From Subtercola vilae (lineage in GTDB: Bacteria > Actinomycetota > Actinomycetes > Actinomycetales > Microbacteriaceae): a DNA stretch of 64,000 nt. Shown here piece by piece: positions 6,170-24,407 of the stretch (within the stretch, counting starts at the first letter, position 1; the number at the start of each line of letters is the position of its first letter). A model generated the notes under the pieces. The model was not told the DNA's origin. It saw only the letters and a program-made list of their open reading frames with translations, and did no database searches. Where the stretch lies: contig NZ_QYRT01000016.1 of NCBI RefSeq assembly GCF_004923255.1, positions 1 through 64,000 of the forward strand. The letters run 5' to 3'. Made by a program: the position numbers and the translations under genes.

Positions 6170-7273
6170 TCAGTACCTCACCCTCGGGTCGATGAGCGCC
6201 GCAATGATGTCGACGATGAAGTTTGTCACGGCCACGATCACAGCCAGTAGCGCGACGATGCCCTGCACGGCGACGAAGTCGCGCGCGGCAAGGTACTGCG
6301 CGAGCTGGAACCCGAGGCCCTTCCACTCGAAGGTCGACTCCGTGAGCACCGCGCCGCCCAGCAGCAGCGCGATCTGCAGGCCGATGACGGTGATGATGGG
6401 TATCAGCGCCGGCTTGTACGCGTGCCGGCGAACCAGCCGATACTCGCTCACGCCGCGCGAACGTGCCGCGTCGACGTAGTCGGTCGAGAGCGTACCGATG
6501 ACGTTCGTGCGCACCAACCGCAGAAAGACCCCGGCTGTGAGCAGCCCGAGCGCGATGGCGGGCAGCACCGCGTGAGTCAGAACGTCGCCGATGACGGCCG
6601 GGTCACCGGTCTGAAACGCGTCGATGAGGTAGATGCCGGTTCGGTTCGGCAGGTCTTGCATCTCGAACTCCGAACTCGTGGTGGCTCGGCCCGCGACGGG
6701 CAGAACGTTCAACCACACGGCGAAGATGAGCTTCAGCAGAATGCCGGCGAAGAAGACAGGAGTGGCGTAACAGAGAATGGCGAAGACGCGCAGTGCGGCA
6801 TCCTGACCCTTGTCACGAAAGTAGGCGGCGAGCATGCCCAGCGGAATGCCCACGATGAACGCCACGATGAGGGCGTAGAACGCCAGCTCGAGGGTTGCTA
6901 CGCCATAGGTGGCGAGAATTTCGGTGATGGGCCGGTTGTCGCTGATGCTGGTGCCGAAGTTGCCCGTGACGATCTGGCCGAGGTACTCGAAGTACTGCAC
7001 CAGGATGGGCCGGTCGTAGCCGGCTGCATGGATGCGCTCCTGCAGTTGTGCGCCGCTGAGACGGCCGCCCAGGGCCGCGGTGATCGGGTCGCCCGTCGCC
7101 CGCATGAGAAAGAAGACCAGGGTCACCAGGATGAAGATGGTGGGAATGATGAGCAGGAAGCGAATGACGATGTAGCGACCGAGGCCTCCTCCGGAGGCCT
7201 TGCTCTTCGCAACGGGTGAAGCGGGGGAGGCCGGAGGTACCGGGGGTACCAGGGCCTGGGCGGTCGCTGTCAT
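6170..7273 (-). CDS. Peptide ABC transporter permease (DppB type)
   Basis: A 367-residue permease. A Pro/Ala-rich N-terminus precedes the first helix (FLLIIPTIFILVTLVFFLM) and a conserved extracytoplasmic segment typical of DppB (GDPITAALGG). The five-helix transport core follows, with the EAA-type loop YVDAARSRGVSEYRLVRRHAYKPALI. Start ATG 7273 is preferred over the in-frame TTG at 7282; neither has a strong ribosome site. It is the second gene of the operon, after the binding protein, and nearly abuts the DppC-like gene, indicating translational coupling. Confidence 0.92.
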   Translation of the reverse strand: MTATAQALVPPVPPASPASPVAKSKASGGGLGRYIVIRFLLIIPTIFILVTLVFFLMRATGDPITAALGGRLSGAQLQERIHAAGYDRPILVQYFEYLGQIVTGNFGTSISDNRPITEILATYGVATLELAFYALIVAFIVGIPLGMLAAYFRDKGQDAALRVFAILCYATPVFFAGILLKLIFAVWLNVLPVAGRATTSSEFEMQDLPNRTGIYLIDAFQTGDPAVIGDVLTHAVLPAIALGLLTAGVFLRLVRTNVIGTLSTDYVDAARSRGVSEYRLVRRHAYKPALIPIITVIGLQIALLLGGAVLTESTFEWKGLGFQLAQYLAARDFVAVQGIVALLAVIVAVTNFIVDIIAALIDPRVRY

Positions 7274-18426: not shown

Positions 18427-19654
18427 GAGTCGAGGGTAGGGCAGTTGAGGGTGGGGCAGTTGAAGGTGTCGAGACGGCGGCCCGGAGGGGGGCGGTGGCG
18501 AACTCGCGCACGCCCTGCTCGAAGGTGACGGCGGGCATCCAGTGCAGTTCGAGACGCAGGCGCTCAGACGAGGCCGTGATGTGTCGCACGTCGCCGAGGC
18601 GGTATTCGCCCGTGGTCACCGGGGCCGGGCCGTTCGACCAGCGGCTCAGTTCGGTGGCGAGGTCACCGATGGTGTGCACTGTTCCGCTGCCCACATTGAA
18701 GGCGCGAAAGGCGCCTCCCGGGTTCGGCAGGGCGGTGTTGTCGATGGCGGCAAGGTTGGCGGCGGCCACGTCTCGAACGTGAACGAAGTCTCGGCGTTGC
18801 AGGCCGTCTTCGAAGACCCGGGGCGCCTCGCCGCGTTCGAGTGCCGAGCGGAACAGCGACGCCACCCCCGCGTACGGCGTGTTCTGTGGCATGCCGGGCC
18901 CGTACACGTTGTGGTACCGCAGCGCGACCGCGCGTCCTCCGGTCGAACGGGACCACGCTGTGGCGAGGTACTCCTGCGACAGCTTGCTCGAGGCGTAGAC
19001 GTTGCGCGGGTCGAGGGGGGCGTCTTCGAAGATGAGTGCAGGCTCGAGTGGCACGCCCGTTTCGGTGTCGACGGGGTCGAAGCGCCCTGCCTCGAGATCG
19101 GCGACGAGCCGGGCGGGTGGCCTGACCGTCTCGCCTCTGCTGCCTGCGCTGCCCGTGTCATCGGTCTCGCCCGTTTCGATGCTGCCGGTACTGGATGCGC
19201 GGCGGTAGCTGCCCTCGCCGTAGACCACCATCGACGACGCCAGCACCAGCCGGTCGATGCCCGCGGTCGTCATGGCGGCGAGCAGAATCGCGGTGCCGAG
19301 TTCGTTGCTCGCCACGTAGTCGGGAGCGTCGAGAAAGTCGACTCCGAGCCCGACCTTGGCCGCCTGATGGCAGACGACGGTGACGTCCACGAGGGAATCA
19401 GCAACGGCTGCGGGGTCGGTCATGTCGCCGAGCCGGAAGTCGACGCGTGGGTCGAGCCCGGCGGGCCGGCCCAGCTGCGCCGCGTGCACGTCGGGTCGCA
19501 GCGAGTCGAAGACGCGTACCGCCCAGCCCTGCTCGAGGGCGGCCGTGACGATGGCGCTGCCGATGAACCCGGCGCCGCCCGTGACGAGAAGGGTTCTGGG
19601 TTCGTGGCTCGAAGCGCTCGCGGGCTGCGTGACCGAGGTGGGGTGGTCGCTCAC
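18419..19654 (-). CDS. NAD-dependent sugar epimerase/dehydratase (GalE-like)
   Basis: A 411-residue extended short-chain dehydrogenase. The NAD motif GGAGFIGS lies at about residues 26-33, the SSMVVYGEG strand at about 145-153, and the catalytic YASSK at about 225-229. RRDFVHVRDVA and the C-terminal GSGTVHTIGDLA are standard for nucleotide-sugar epimerases. Compared with GalE it has an insert of ~70 residues before YASSK, as in the Rv0536-like group. In relatives I recall cysteine pairs in that insert; none are here. GTG 19654 overlaps the phosphorylase stop by three bases (GTGA), and its own stop overlaps the GT2 start. Confidence 0.88.
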   Translation of the reverse strand: MSDHPTSVTQPASASSHEPRTLLVTGGAGFIGSAIVTAALEQGWAVRVFDSLRPDVHAAQLGRPAGLDPRVDFRLGDMTDPAAVADSLVDVTVVCHQAAKVGLGVDFLDAPDYVASNELGTAILLAAMTTAGIDRLVLASSMVVYGEGSYRRASSTGSIETGETDDTGSAGSRGETVRPPARLVADLEAGRFDPVDTETGVPLEPALIFEDAPLDPRNVYASSKLSQEYLATAWSRSTGGRAVALRYHNVYGPGMPQNTPYAGVASLFRSALERGEAPRVFEDGLQRRDFVHVRDVAAANLAAIDNTALPNPGGAFRAFNVGSGTVHTIGDLATELSRWSNGPAPVTTGEYRLGDVRHITASSERLRLELHWMPAVTFEQGVREFATAPLRAAVSTPSTAPPSTALPSTHA

Positions 19655-20580
19655 GATGCTGCGCCAGAGACGGTTGCTGCGGCAGAGACGGTTGCTGCGC
19701 CAGAGACGGTTGCGGCGGGCGGGTACGCGAGAACAGCGGCCACTTCGGCGGGCGCGATCAGGTCGCGCGGGGCGTAGTCGGCGGGGATCGCCCGGATGAT
19801 GGCCTCGATGGCCCCGACGATGCGCGGCTGGGCTGCGGCGAGGCGCTCGAACACCAGCTCGGCGCTCACCGAGTCGTCGTCTAGCGACGCAGACGCAGAC
19901 GCAGACGCGTCAGCCGCAGGCGCAAGACCCGCATCGGCATCGGTGACGAACGACAGGTTCACTGTGCCGATGGTGAGTTCGGCGGCGAGCGTCACCTCGG
20001 GCACCAGGGTCATGTTCACCGTGTGGGCCCCGGCCGCGCGAAACCACAGCGACTCGGCGCGCGTCGAGAACCGCGGGCCCTGAATGACCACGACCGTGCC
20101 CGTCGAAGCGAACACCTCGCCCGCTTCGGTGAGCGCCCGCGCCGCGATGCCGTGAAGTTCAGGGCAGAACGGGTCGGCCGCAGCCAGGTGCTGCACGCTG
20201 CCCCGGTCGAAGAACGTGTCGGGTCGGCCCGACGTGCGGTCGAGGAACTGGTCGGTCAGCACGAGGGTTCCGGGCGGGTACTCGGGGCTGACGCCGCCCA
20301 CGGCGGCCGACGAGACGATGGCGCGCACGCCGAGCGATTTCAGCGCCCAGATGTTCGCACGGTAGTTGATGAGATGAGGCGCCACCGAGTGGTCTGACCC
20401 GTGCCGGGTGAGGAACGCTACGCGCCGACCGCCGAGCTCTCCGACCGTGATGGTGCTCGAGGTGGGGCCGTATGGCGTGTCGACCGTGAGCGTCTCCGAT
20501 GACGCGGGGTCGAACAGCGAGTAGAGCCCCGAGCCCCCGATGACGGCGACGGTCGCGGTGGCGGCGTGGTGGTGTGACAT
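19651..20580 (-). CDS. S-methyl-5'-thioadenosine phosphorylase / MTAP-family purine nucleoside phosphorylase
   Basis: A 309-residue enzyme. The phosphate loop VAVIGGSGLYSLF at about 11-24, TRHGSDHSVAPHLINYRANIWALK, a conserved SSAAVGGVSPEYPPG block, QGPRFSTRAESLWFR and the purine-site NMTLVPEVTLAAEL are all present. Family enzymes split methylthioadenosine with phosphate into adenine and 5-methylthioribose-1-phosphate. It is the first gene of a block coupled by overlapping stops and starts, so it may feed 5-methylthioribose-1-phosphate into a sugar pathway rather than, or besides, methionine salvage. An inserted Ala/Ser/Asp run (ADASASASA) and a repeat-encoded Ala/Thr/Val tail look lineage-specific. 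Confidence 0.9.
   Translation of the reverse strand: MSHHHAATATVAVIGGSGLYSLFDPASSETLTVDTPYGPTSSTITVGELGGRRVAFLTRHGSDHSVAPHLINYRANIWALKSLGVRAIVSSAAVGGVSPEYPPGTLVLTDQFLDRTSGRPDTFFDRGSVQHLAAADPFCPELHGIAARALTEAGEVFASTGTVVVIQGPRFSTRAESLWFRAAGAHTVNMTLVPEVTLAAELTIGTVNLSFVTDADAGLAPAADASASASASLDDDSVSAELVFERLAAAQPRIVGAIEAIIRAIPADYAPRDLIAPAEVAAVLAYPPAATVSGAATVSAAATVSGAAS
19661..19714. repeat. 18-bp tandem repeat, three copies, within the MTAP C-terminus
   Basis: Three in-frame 18-base units (GCGCCAGAGACGGTTGCT with one- or two-base variation) encode the terminal ATVSGA/ATVSAA repeats of the phosphorylase. They lie directly before its stop codon and the overlapping epimerase start. Copy-number change would alter only the tail length. 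Confidence 0.9.
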
Positions 20581-20632: not shown

Positions 20633-21454
20633 TTACTCGGCGGCAGCCCCGTGCGTACGTGCCACCAGCGACTGCACCTCCGGCAGCCGCTCGATCTCGT
20701 TGAACGAGTACACGTGCAGCCCTGCTACTCCCACGCGCTGCAACTGCGGCTCGGCCGCGAGCTCGGCGATGAACGGCGCCGGGTCGAAATCGCGAGACCT
20801 CAGCAGCCCGCCCGCCACACCGGCGCTTCGCTTCAGGAAGCCGAGCGAGCTGCCAACGCCGATGCGCGCCGAGAGCGAGATGAGGCGCGATCGTCTGAGT
20901 GCCCCGGGCACCCCGACCCAGAGCGGTGCCGTCACGCCCGACGCCCGCAGCTGGGCGGCGTAGGTGCCGATGGTCTCGGCCGAGAAACAGAGTTGAGTGA
21001 CGACCTTGTCGACGAAGGGGGCCCGCTCGAGCAGGTGCTTCGAGAGCTGGTCGGGGCTCTGGTGGGGGTGGCCCTCGGGGTATCCGGCGATGCCGAGCGA
21101 CAGCTGCGGTGCGCGGTCGACGATGTCGTGGATGAGTTCGAGACTGGTGGAGTACGAGCCGGCCGGGGAACCGCCGTCGCCTGAGACGACGAAAGCTTCG
21201 CCGATACCGCTGTCGTGCATCCGGAGCAGAATGCTTTCGAGTTCGCCGCGGCTGGCGATGGCGCGGGCAGAGAGGTGCGGCACCACACCGAAGCCGAGGC
21301 GTGCAAGCTCGATCGACGCACGCACGGTACGTTCGACGCCGTGCTGCGGCAGGCTGGTGACGGTGAGGGTCACGGCAGAGGTGTCGGCGAAGGTGCGTGC
21401 GAGCCGGTCAGCGACACCGTCGGCGGGAATGATTTCAAAACGCAGTGCGGTCAC
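20633..21454 (-). CDS. Methylenetetrahydrofolate reductase-like flavoprotein
   Basis: A 273-residue TIM-barrel protein of the MetF family, with VTSLPQHGVERTV, PHLSARAI, VSGDGGSP, GYPEGHPHQSPDQ, DKVVTQLCFSAE and a C-terminal GLHVYSFNE block. MetF reduces 5,10-methylene-THF to 5-methyl-THF using FAD. The sequence is shorter and more divergent than E. coli MetF and lacks the standard N-terminus, so the exact substrate may differ (some actinobacterial paralogues are only MetF-like). GTG 21454 lies 24 bases after the rhodopsin stop on the same strand, so it may belong to the same transcript. Confidence 0.8.
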   Translation of the reverse strand: MTALRFEIIPADGVADRLARTFADTSAVTLTVTSLPQHGVERTVRASIELARLGFGVVPHLSARAIASRGELESILLRMHDSGIGEAFVVSGDGGSPAGSYSTSLELIHDIVDRAPQLSLGIAGYPEGHPHQSPDQLSKHLLERAPFVDKVVTQLCFSAETIGTYAAQLRASGVTAPLWVGVPGALRRSRLISLSARIGVGSSLGFLKRSAGVAGGLLRSRDFDPAPFIAELAAEPQLQRVGVAGLHVYSFNEIERLPEVQSLVARTHGAAAE

Positions 21455-21478
21455 CCACCCAAGCGTGTCACATGCCGG

Positions 21479-22435
21479 CTACAGGTCGCCGACCACCTCG
21501 GGGTCTTGAACGGTGGGAACAGCGGTGCTCGTCGGTGGCCGCGAGTGCCGAGGGTGAACTTCGGCGCCCTTCGCGAGATGCACCTCGAGCGGTTGGCCCG
21601 CATCAGAGAGTTTCTCAGACGAGATCCAGATCGACTCCGGATGCACGTCGTCACCTGCCCGTACATCTTCGGCCGTGCGCAGCTTCGCCACCCGGTGTAT
21701 GAGGGTGCCGAAGCCGAGCTTCACCACGACGTCGGCCACGCACAGCGCGATTTGCATCGTCGTGGCCCACGCGCCGCCATCGCCGAAGATCTGGATGAGG
21801 AAGACGATCGGGTAGATCACCCAGCCCGAGAGCAGCACAATCGCCGCGTTCTTCAGCAGAACAGCCGCCCGAGGGGTGACGTTCGGAAGCGATTTCTGTA
21901 CGGCGCCGATGAGCACGATGTTGGTGGCGATCCAGAACACCACGCTGATGCCGCCCCAGAGCAGGGTCGACACGCGGTTCTCGCCGCCATCGACGATGAT
22001 CGCGCCCATGAAGCCGCAGAAGATCATCAGAAACGAGAAGCCGCCAGCCATCAGCTGTGTGCGCCGCAGGTGGGCGCCGGTGAAGGTACAGACGGCGAGC
22101 AACTCGAACGTGAGGAGTGGAACGGTGACCGACCAGTCGCTGTAGCGCAGAGCAAAAAGCGAGACGGTCGAATCGGTGGGCGAGTACGCGCCGCCGGAGT
22201 GGGTGTAGCTCAGCAGCAGGGTGAGCAGCAACCCGATGTACGAGACGAAGGCGATGCCCGTGATGCTGAGCCGTGCCACGACGGCCGGACGAAAGCGTGA
22301 ACCGACCTCAGCCTGCGTGACGATGCTGCGCATGAACCCGGCGAGCAGGGCGAGACCGGCGAGAACAAAGAAGTACAGAGTGAGCTGGAACTCGGCCGTT
22401 GTGAGGGTGGCGGTCCAGGGAGGAATGAGGTTCAT
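21479..22435 (-). CDS. Microbial rhodopsin, CryoRhodopsin-like
   Basis: A 318-residue seven-helix retinal protein. Helix G has the Schiff-base lysine K239 in DVVVKLGFG with counterion D235. Helix C reads RYSDWSVTVPLLTFEL, giving R97, D100, T104 and E111: a DTE motif in the positions of bacteriorhodopsin D85, T89 and D96. Helix F has W205 and P209. The residue aligned with bacteriorhodopsin T46 is R55 on the cytoplasmic side of helix B, a buried-arginine feature I recall as defining CryoRhodopsins. The position of proteorhodopsin H75 is S65. Helix E has W160-G161, where Gly replaces W138. A ~68-residue hydrophilic tail follows helix G. AGGAG five bases before ATG 22435 and an 8-base gap couple it to DUF7882. 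Confidence 0.93.
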   Translation of the reverse strand: MNLIPPWTATLTTAEFQLTLYFFVLAGLALLAGFMRSIVTQAEVGSRFRPAVVARLSITGIAFVSYIGLLLTLLLSYTHSGGAYSPTDSTVSLFALRYSDWSVTVPLLTFELLAVCTFTGAHLRRTQLMAGGFSFLMIFCGFMGAIIVDGGENRVSTLLWGGISVVFWIATNIVLIGAVQKSLPNVTPRAAVLLKNAAIVLLSGWVIYPIVFLIQIFGDGGAWATTMQIALCVADVVVKLGFGTLIHRVAKLRTAEDVRAGDDVHPESIWISSEKLSDAGQPLEVHLAKGAEVHPRHSRPPTSTAVPTVQDPEVVGDL

Positions 22436-22443
22436 TGACGCTC

Positions 22444-22785
22444 CTAGACTCGAGCTCGGCCGGCCGGAGCCGCGGTGTGCGCCACCGAACCCGGTTCGGG
22501 AAGAAAAAAGAGACCGCTGCCACTGTTCGCCGACTCCATGAGCGCGTCGATCCACTCCCTGTTTATAGAGGGAACGCGCGAGCCGAAGAACCGGTAGTAG
22601 AGAGTGCTGCTGGCGTCGAGCCAAATAGAACTGCGGCCGCTGCCGACCTCAGCCGAATCGTTCCAGGAGAATACAAAGCTCTCCCGGCGGCGGAGTTTGG
22701 CGGTGATGACAATCTGGAGATGCTGGAGAGCCCGGTCATCGAAACTGATCTCGATGCTGGGGCTCCCGTAAAGCAGTAGGCCCAA
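22444..22785 (-). CDS. DUF7882 family small protein, paired with the rhodopsin
   Basis: A 113-residue protein starting at TTG 22785 (LLLYGSPSIEISFDD), the family's usual N-terminus after Met. Typical blocks follow: LQIVITAKLRRRESFVFSW, GSGRSSIWLDAS, LYYRFFGSR and NREWIDALMESAN. DUF7882 is abundant in Microbacteriaceae and has often been labelled an ATP-dependent DNA ligase without evidence; no ligase motif is present. It looks soluble with mixed alpha/beta. Its TAG stop is part of the rhodopsin ribosome site (TAGGAG), so the two genes are translationally linked. A small protein beside CryoRhodopsin genes has been proposed as a signalling partner; whether it is this family I cannot confirm. 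Confidence 0.85.
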   Translation of the reverse strand: MGLLLYGSPSIEISFDDRALQHLQIVITAKLRRRESFVFSWNDSAEVGSGRSSIWLDASSTLYYRFFGSRVPSINREWIDALMESANSGSGLFFLPEPGSVAHTAAPAGRARV

Positions 22786-22797
22786 AACCCGGCCTGT

Positions 22798-22923
22798 CTA
22801 GAGGTCTTTGGGGTCTGTATCGGCTGCCGCGCCGCCCGAGGCCGTGTCTTCATCGGTCTCGGCATTGTGGTTCTGCTGGGTGTCGGTTGACGTGTCGGGA
22901 GTCTCATCTTTTTTGTCGCTCAT
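22798..22923 (-). CDS. Small acidic ORF (41 aa) upstream of DUF7882 and rhodopsin
   Basis: ATG 22923 to TAG 22798 encodes a 41-residue, strongly hydrophilic and acidic peptide rich in Asp, Thr, Glu and Ala (beginning MSDKKDETPD, ending DTDPKDL). It has no hydrophobic segment and looks disordered. It ends 12 bases before the DUF7882 start, in the same direction, so it would lead a three-gene rhodopsin operon. The ribosome site (GGTG) is weak, and I recognise no family. It may be a real small protein or a non-coding leader. Confidence 0.5.
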   Translation of the reverse strand: MSDKKDETPDTSTDTQQNHNAETDEDTASGGAAADTDPKDL

Positions 22924-23033
22924 GAACACCAAAATACGCGGGGCTGTGCGGGAGCTGCGGCTACTGCCCTGGGGACTTGTGCGGAGGGCGACGCGGGGCT
23001 AGCATCGTGCGCTTTCTGCGCCCTACGACATGC

Positions 23034-24407
23034 TCAGCACTCCACCACATTCAGTGCCAGGCCCCCGCGCGATGTCTCCTTGTACTTGTCTTTCATGTCG
23101 GCACCGGTCTCGCGCATGGTCTTGATCGCTTGATCGAGCGAGACGTGGTGCTCACCGTCGGTGCGCACGGCCATGCGGGCGGCCGTGATGGCCTTCACCG
23201 CCCCCACCGCATTCCGTTCGATGCACGGAATCTGCACGAGGCCGCCCACCGGGTCGCAGGTGAGGCCCAGATTGTGTTCGATGCCGATCTCGGCCGCCAT
23301 CTCGACCTGTTTCGGTGTGCCGCCGAGCACTTCGGTGAGCCCGGCGGCCGCCATCGAGCAGGCCGACCCGACTTCGCCCTGGCAACCGACTTCGGCGCCC
23401 GAAATCGATGCGTTCTCTTTGAAGAGGATGCCGACGGCGGTGGCCGCGAGCAGAAACCGCACCACCCCGTCATCGGTGGCCCGTGGCACGAACTCTGTGT
23501 AATACGACAGAACGGCCGGGATGATGCCGGCGGCCCCGTTCGTCGGAGCCGTCACCACGCGCCCGCCCGCCGCGTTCTCCTCGTTCACGGCGAGAGCGTA
23601 GAGGGTGACCCATTCCATGGCCCGTAGGGGGTCGGACGGGTCGAGGTGAGCCTCGAGCTGGGCCCGTTGGGCCGCGGCACGGCGGCGTACCTTGAGGCCA
23701 CCGGGAAGAATGCCGGGGGTCGAGCATCCGCGCTCAATTGTCTGCTGCATCACGTGCCAGATGTGCAGCAGCTCGGCACGCACCTCCGCCACGGTTCGCC
23801 ACACCAGTTCGTTCGCGAGAACCAGGTCGCTCACGCGCATTCCGGTGCTCTCGCAGAGCGCTACGAGCTCATCGCCGCTCGAGAAGGGGTACGGAACGGG
23901 CGTGGGGTCTTTCACGACGACCTTCTGACCTGTCTCGTCTTCGTCGACCACGAAGCCACCGCCGATCGAGAAGTACTCGCGCAGTTCTAGGGGTTCGCCG
24001 GCACTGTCGAACGCGGTGAACCGCATGCCGTTGCTGTGGAAGTCGAGGCGCTCGCGGCGGTGCATGACGATGTCGGTGCGCCACGAGAAGGGCACCGGAT
24101 GCCCGCCGGCCAGTTCGAGCACCCCTGCGGTCTCTGCGCGCTCGACCGCCGCATCGGCCGTCTCAGGGTCGACGAGGTGCGGCTGTTCGCCCGCGAGACC
24201 CAGCATCACGGCCTTGATCGTGCCGTGACCGTGGCCCGTGGCCCCGAGCGAGCCGAACAGGTCGACGCGCACCCGGGCGACCGCCTCGAGCGTGCCCGCC
24301 TCTCTCAGCCGAGTGACGAACTGGTAGGCGGCCCTCATGGGCCCGACGGTGTGAGAACTCGACGGGCCGATGCCGATGGTGAAGAGGTCGAATGCGCTGA
24401 GGCTCAT
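23034..24407 (-). CDS. sdaA: L-serine ammonia-lyase (L-serine dehydratase), iron-sulfur type
   Basis: A 457-residue single-chain enzyme that deaminates L-serine to pyruvate and ammonia. The beta domain begins [24 protein letters not shown]. The alpha domain has the cysteines used for the 4Fe-4S cluster and active site: [31 protein letters not shown] and [21 protein letters not shown]. The [11 protein letters not shown] block is also conserved. It is cytoplasmic and oxygen-sensitive in the known family. It diverges from the alcohol dehydrogenase unit. Two direct repeats lie just upstream and may be its operator. Confidence 0.96.

Follow-up and report, generated by a model that had tools for sequence, protein, structure and literature searches.

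The rhodopsin gene at positions 21479..22435 (minus strand) of the window, by which we mean the whole 64,000-nucleotide stretch of Subtercola vilae DNA analysed here, raises the question of whether its product is an ordinary proton pump or a light-driven switch, and through which partner a switch might act. The S. vilae assembly (4,043,135 bases, 103 contigs) contains three rhodopsin genes, a pump-like one on contig C45, the window gene on C12 and a further one on C27, and a 2019 report on strain DB165T had likewise counted three, two of them S. boreus-like and one xanthorhodopsin-like (PMC6518244). The strain was isolated from a lake at 6170 m, and S. vilae shares with the hosts of CryoRhodopsins that it is one of the Microbacteriaceae of a cold environment. 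Five CryoRhodopsins, CryoR1 to CryoR5, were described by Lamm et al. 2025 (PMC12227055), with a supplementary table that lists 40 sequences; CryoR4 was taken from S. vilae (A0A4T2CD69, motif RRDNEDK), and CryoR5 carries the motif RRDTEDK. CryoR4 fits the second S. vilae copy (C27, locus L065) and not the window gene, a match made by species and the motif RRDNEDK alone.

Judged by its sequence, the window gene encodes a CryoRhodopsin. The frame is intact from 22435 down to 21479, opens with an ATG that has AGGAG five bases 5’ of it, and encodes a protein of 318 residues. This protein matches the Pfam Bac_rhodopsin profile at 93.4 bits (cut-off 24.6), while NCBIfam at E 0.001 gave no match for it or for the DUF7882 protein encoded upstream. 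In a sequence search of the PDB, CryoR2 scored 371 bits and CryoR1 323 bits, and the next rhodopsin, Gll0198, 88 bits. The residues R97, D100, T104, E111, D235 and K239 that the sequence-only reading had singled out are all found at these numbers in the translation, as are R55 and S65; K239, the lysine of the retinal Schiff base, is encoded at 21719..21721 and R55, the helix-B arginine characteristic of the group, at 22271..22273 (both minus strand). The motif RRXXXDK of CryoRhodopsins appears here as RRDTEDK, the form found in 18 of the 28 full-length R55 rows of our alignment. The proposed equivalence of R55 to bacteriorhodopsin T46 held up, since R55 aligns ungapped onto CryoR2 R58 and CryoR1 R57 (phmmer, 8r0p and 8r0k), the step to T46 itself being taken from PMC12227055. 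The column of S65, said to replace the proteorhodopsin histidine H75 (a numbering that is the reading's own), is indeed a histidine in the genome’s own pump-like rhodopsin. In the solved structures of CryoR1 and CryoR2, the arginine lies inside the protein next to the glutamate equivalent to E111 (PMC12227055). By homology to these structures, R55 would be buried beside E111; the window protein is 55% identical to L081, 49% to L017 and 59% to the second S. vilae copy L065. Four pairs of related CryoR genes have dN/dS of 0.12 to 0.18, so that the frame of the R55 rhodopsins is not a chance one, the window gene itself being without a relative close enough for such an estimate.

We placed the protein within its family using an alignment of 48 rows, made up of 40 of the 46 places found by the search (34 of the 398 genomes sampled for the family), seven additional loci and the genome’s own pump. 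The six places left out (three in G097 and one each in G159, G209 and G016) all scored 234 bits or less, and 13 of the 20 loci of a second search were treated as duplicates of sampled genomes and counted once. Among the 47 rhodopsins besides the pump, position 55 is arginine in 30 (28 full-length, 2 partial), serine or glycine in 16 and absent in one (L103, which stands outside the R/non-R counts); the partial sequences L091 and L092 stand outside the per-residue counts and the rhodopsin tree. In a tree of 53 rows, obtained by one quick IQ-TREE search without bootstrap and with an outgroup of only seven pumps, all of one kind, the 30 R55 rows (28 full-length and two of G405) form one clade with SH-aLRT 100. 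All 28 full-length clade members have R55, and all 16 sister rhodopsins have S or G. Among the clade's members are L017 (Cryobacterium levicorallinum, CryoR1) and L081; the letters of L017 and L081 match CryoR1 and CryoR2 over the stretches compared by eye. The window gene falls inside it, within a starred branch that unites eight Subtercola sequences and is here called lineage A. The seven pump-like sequences of the same family stand far off, behind a branch of 3.26 changes per column. The tree thus bears out the expectation of the sequence-only reading that the protein belongs with the CryoRhodopsins and not in a pump clade. Nor is it a xanthorhodopsin or actinorhodopsin, as it does not group with the pumps and does not keep the helix-B histidine. 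We therefore regard as very improbable indeed that this is an ordinary outward proton pump of the xanthorhodopsin or proteorhodopsin type with a chance arginine. Carboxylates do occupy the acceptor and donor positions (D100 and E111), as in pumps; however, the tree, the bit scores, the C-terminal tail, the DUF7882 neighbour and the serine in place of the pump histidine all contradict such an assignment, and this genome encodes its pump-like rhodopsin elsewhere, on C45.

All five measured CryoRs share a blue-shifted, UV-absorbing state that lasts minutes, and at pH 8 the CryoR1 mutation R57T speeds up the decay of the long-lived state about 100-fold (PMC12227055). The arginine of CryoR1 and CryoR2 first shields the route between cytoplasm and Schiff base and later closes it (PMC12227055). 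By analogy, the window protein would be expected to photoswitch slowly, as CryoRs do. Visible light would deprotonate the Schiff base, R55 would then flip toward it and block reprotonation, and the resulting UV-absorbing state would last minutes until reset by UV or blue light; these steps were measured in relatives and are transferred to the window protein by homology. Its output is most likely a contact between proteins, in which the conserved C-terminal tail of the pentamer would dock on the DUF7882 protein of the upstream gene. We assign a probability of roughly 0.8 to this reading as a whole, a CryoRhodopsin that acts as a very slow photoswitch with its output through docking of the tail on the upstream DUF7882 protein. 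The suggestion that the gene encodes a light sensor or photoswitch rather than an ordinary pump stands in its first half, which is supported by the five measured relatives, one of them with the same motif; the words “rather than a pump” call for caution, since CryoR1 was seen to transport protons inward. A light-sensor role for CryoRs is a hypothesis in PMC12227055 too.

As to the supply of retinal, matches to BCD/Blh (PF15461) and RPE65 (PF03055) were absent from the S. vilae genome despite its three rhodopsin genes, and S. vilae is in this respect one of 13 among the 22 R55 genomes asked that gave no BCD match; the other 9 have it, and RPE65 is found in 1 of 23. Aurantimicrobium minutum produces retinal with none of the known genes for it (PMC7734400), and a missing match to a retinal enzyme does not, therefore, mean a dead rhodopsin.

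The gene upstream of the rhodopsin (22444..22785, minus strand) encodes a DUF7882 (PF25355) protein of 113 residues with a TTG start, which scores 126 bits against a cut-off of 27. Between its end and the rhodopsin start lie 8 nt, and the AGGAG of the rhodopsin overlaps its stop codon; because of this spacing and overlap, a single message very probably serves for the translation of both genes. A scan of 21300-23300 gave no promoter sites and two terminator-like sites, with 1.0 expected. On the same strand lie sdaA, for L-serine dehydratase (23034..24407), whose synteny holds for part of lineage A, an MTHFR-like gene downstream (20633..21454), a metabolic neighbour, and a gene like that for S-methyl-5’-thioadenosine phosphorylase (19651..20580), a syntenic neighbour that falls below the NCBIfam cut-offs. 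Between sdaA and the DUF7882 gene there is also a small acidic ORF of 41 codons (22798..22923, minus strand), with 12 nt between it and the DUF7882 start. L067, L068 and L069 have related ORFs of 35 residues in the corresponding position; L066, L070, L071, L204 and L205 do not.

DUF7882 has been called a “putative cytoplasmic transducer” of CryoRs, with a stated PH-like fold (PMC12227055); its profile found no match in the PDB up to E = 1. An adjacent DUF7882 gene was present at all 32 R55 loci examined (28 full-length, 2 partial and 2 of G405) and at none of the 16 S/G-55 loci, where a second search, by profile at a threshold of E 0.01, took in 5 to 8 kb in either direction (for L101, 1.3 kb in one of them). 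It is the only neighbour family common to at least three genera within 4.5 kb of R55 loci once shadow frames are set aside. Other candidates for conserved CryoR neighbours were discarded, as the remaining recurrent rows, judged by position, overlap the CryoR or DUF7882 genes in other frames. On the tree, the association of R55, DUF7882 and the tail is one evolutionary step, and the loci are therefore not independent.

The tail itself (residues 251-300, 21536..21685, minus strand) gives the window protein the elongated, conserved C terminus that is typical of CryoRs. Across the 28 R55 proteins, the mean frequency of the commonest residue is 0.92 in residues 251-281 compared with 0.69 in residues 20-250, whereas the 16 sister proteins give 0.67 and 0.64. 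The distal part, residues 282-300, is conserved only among R55 rhodopsins, with a score of 0.72 against 0.34 in the sisters; V285 is present in 28/28 R55 proteins and 1/16 sisters, L287 in 27/28 and 1/16. The tail that could hold the partner is thus conserved on the same branch as R55. A short C-terminal strand of CryoR is predicted to join the DUF7882 sheet (PMC12227055), a contact that fits a tail appearing together with its DUF7882 partner. The HPExxW-like motif of the proximal tail is mostly kept in the sisters (PE in 16/16, H in 75%, W in 94%), including rhodopsins of five genomes that have no DUF7882 match (G163, Geodermatophilus, AZ43, Kineococcus and Streptomyces), and this part of the tail must therefore have another role too. 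It also tells against a simple reading of the tail that CryoR1 cut after residue 263 has a wild-type-like spectrum and oligomer (PMC12227055).

These observations also bear on whether the protein is mainly a UV-gated inward proton translocator, with DUF7882 as a structural or regulatory accessory and not a signal transducer, which we consider rather unlikely. Inward proton transport by CryoR1 is modulated by UV light (PMC12227055), and DUF7882 genes are numerous and present also without rhodopsins, as this explanation would have it. The CryoR1 transport is, however, described as weak in the same paper, and the strong conservation of the tail, together with a specific clade of DUF7882, argues for a protein partner.

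That clade emerged from a tree of 89 DUF7882 sequences, a subset of the copies in the genomes; the protein is short and the bootstrap not fully settled, the broken copy of L091 was left out, and the identical copies of L092 and L075 were counted once. A starred clade of 30 sequences (100/99) holds 26 of the 28 CryoR-adjacent copies, that of the window included, and excludes the other nine copies of the S. vilae genome. The label of CryoR adjacency changes 7 times on this tree, compared with 23.8 times when shuffled. Distances among the CryoRs correlate with those among their DUF7882 partners (r 0.55, 28 pairs, a value reached by 0 of 5000 permutations), a correlation that also reflects species relatedness. 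As the tree has it, the partner gene of CryoRs is nearly always drawn from this CryoR-type subclade and not from the generic copies. Docking of the tail on the DUF7882 protein is what we infer from the gene order, the CryoR-type clade and a tail conserved only among R55 rhodopsins.

Two R55 CryoRs, at L082 (G077, Agreia) and L083 (G238), have a convergent, generic-type DUF7882 gene, and they are the only such cases among the 28 in the tree. In the Subtercola pairs, DUF7882 evolves more slowly than the rhodopsin, with the window copies 92% and 66% identical, respectively, to their nearest relatives. A third CryoR copy in G153 (contig C45; L091, L235) is interrupted by one in-frame TAA and lies beside a degraded DUF7882 gene, a decaying pair.

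The family extends well beyond rhodopsins. DUF7882 was found in 39 of the 44 genomes asked, with 11 copies in S. vilae, and three Subtercola genomes without a CryoR match (G090, G248 and G286) have 6 to 9 copies. Inspection by eye of the output of a crude gene picker showed no neighbours common to the other nine S. vilae DUF7882 genes. Four of the 30 members of the CryoR-type clade have no adjoining CryoR: L163 and L162 (both G286), L129 (G007) and L179 (G076). The L163 sequence recurs in G248, with no difference in its first 90 residues. In G286 and G248 (loci L204 and L205), a CryoR-type DUF7882 gene follows sdaA as in the window, and what comes next is an ABC transporter gene, not a rhodopsin; by Pfam, each of these two genomes has one rhodopsin, a pump, and G090 has none. 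One tentative explanation, possible though we lean against it, is that CryoRs are a late light input on an older, rhodopsin-independent DUF7882 adaptor system of the Microbacteriaceae, of which one subclade was recruited by R55 rhodopsins through the new distal tail. If so, DUF7882 proteins would be general membrane-side adaptors, two paralogous pairs in a cell would give two light channels, and members of the recruited subclade would continue to act by themselves at sites that gave no CryoR, such as the sdaA site of G286 and G248 and the place behind the two-component operon of G007. Species that have the partner and no CryoR match offer natural controls for the function of DUF7882.

The second S. 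vilae CryoR lies in a different setting. On C27 (L065, G000:C27:18000-31000), genes for an ABC ATPase, a permease, a HisKA_3 kinase, a LuxR-type regulator, DUF7882 and the CryoR (RRDNEDK) follow one another on one strand; the kinase and regulator genes overlap, and 26 nt separate the regulator from DUF7882. This arrangement is common to five Subtercola genomes (G000, G395, G347, G203 and G153) and, among the six full-length CryoR loci of Subtercola that do not belong to lineage A, to five (L065, L072, L073, L074 and L076; not L081). A small gene 3’ of this CryoR was found at only two loci. The strand, the overlap, the short gap and the recurrence of the order would all suit a scheme in which the S. 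vilae CryoRs feed the LuxR-type two-component system, with DUF7882 passing the light signal to the kinase. We initially treated the two-component system as a candidate for a dedicated CryoR path and then demoted it to a rival of the docking model, one that we now hold to be quite improbable: the operon kinase is present in 12/12 Subtercola genomes, in 7 of which no CryoR follows, and the operon is therefore not dedicated to CryoR. In G007 a DUF7882 gene follows the kinase operon without a CryoR, and the other six genomes have neither gene in the stretch fetched (only ~1 kb for G090). Moreover, there is no kinase and regulator pair of the C27 kind at the window locus, and the order was not found outside Subtercola among the R55 loci. 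The main text of PMC12227055 makes no mention of a histidine kinase, a two-component system or a response regulator.

The kind of protein has thus been published (2025), the rhodopsins of this genome had been counted before (2019), and the window gene is an ordinary member of its group. In the literature collection searched for CryoRhodopsins, DUF7882 and Subtercola rhodopsins, no other paper on CryoR genomics turned up. A reading of raw sequence that recognised a group published only in 2025 is confirmed here, and a comparative test of the proposed transducer is added to it; the CryoR-type DUF7882 clade, its members without a CryoR and the detail of the tail are what is new, and they bear on the evolution of the pair.

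The rhodopsins in which position 55 is S or G (L019, L021, L022, L023, L089, L090 and L093-L102) include some from Geodermatophilus, Kineococcus and Streptomyces, outside the Microbacteriaceae. They are of the same family as the window CryoR and have a related proximal tail, with P266 and E267 in 16/16 and W270 in 94%. In contrast to the window CryoR, they lack R55 and the conserved distal tail, and none of the 16 loci has DUF7882 in the stretch. DSE rhodopsins have been named as the nearest relatives of CryoRs (PMC12227055). The upstream gene of the window is a member of DUF7882 (PF25355), a broad, multi-copy family within which the window copy belongs to the CryoR-type subclade. As for the CryoRs themselves, the window protein is not described in the accessible portion of PMC12227055, and our comparison of sequences was with CryoR1 and CryoR2. 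At the narrowing of the pore, it has I38 and Q41 where CryoR1 has W40 and R43 and CryoR2 has Y41 and R44; Q41 is present in 11 of the 28 full-length R55 rows. By alignment offset, it keeps R36, H247 and W205, which correspond to R38, H249 and W207 of CryoR1, and E284, which corresponds to E287 of CryoR2. CryoR4 comes from the same species and group, with the motif of L065, which is 59% identical to the window protein, and CryoR5 has the very motif of the window protein, RRDTEDK. With CryoR1 to CryoR5 together, the window protein shares the arginine at the T46 position, the motif RRXXXDK, the conserved tail, the adjacent DUF7882 gene and an origin in cold Microbacteriaceae.
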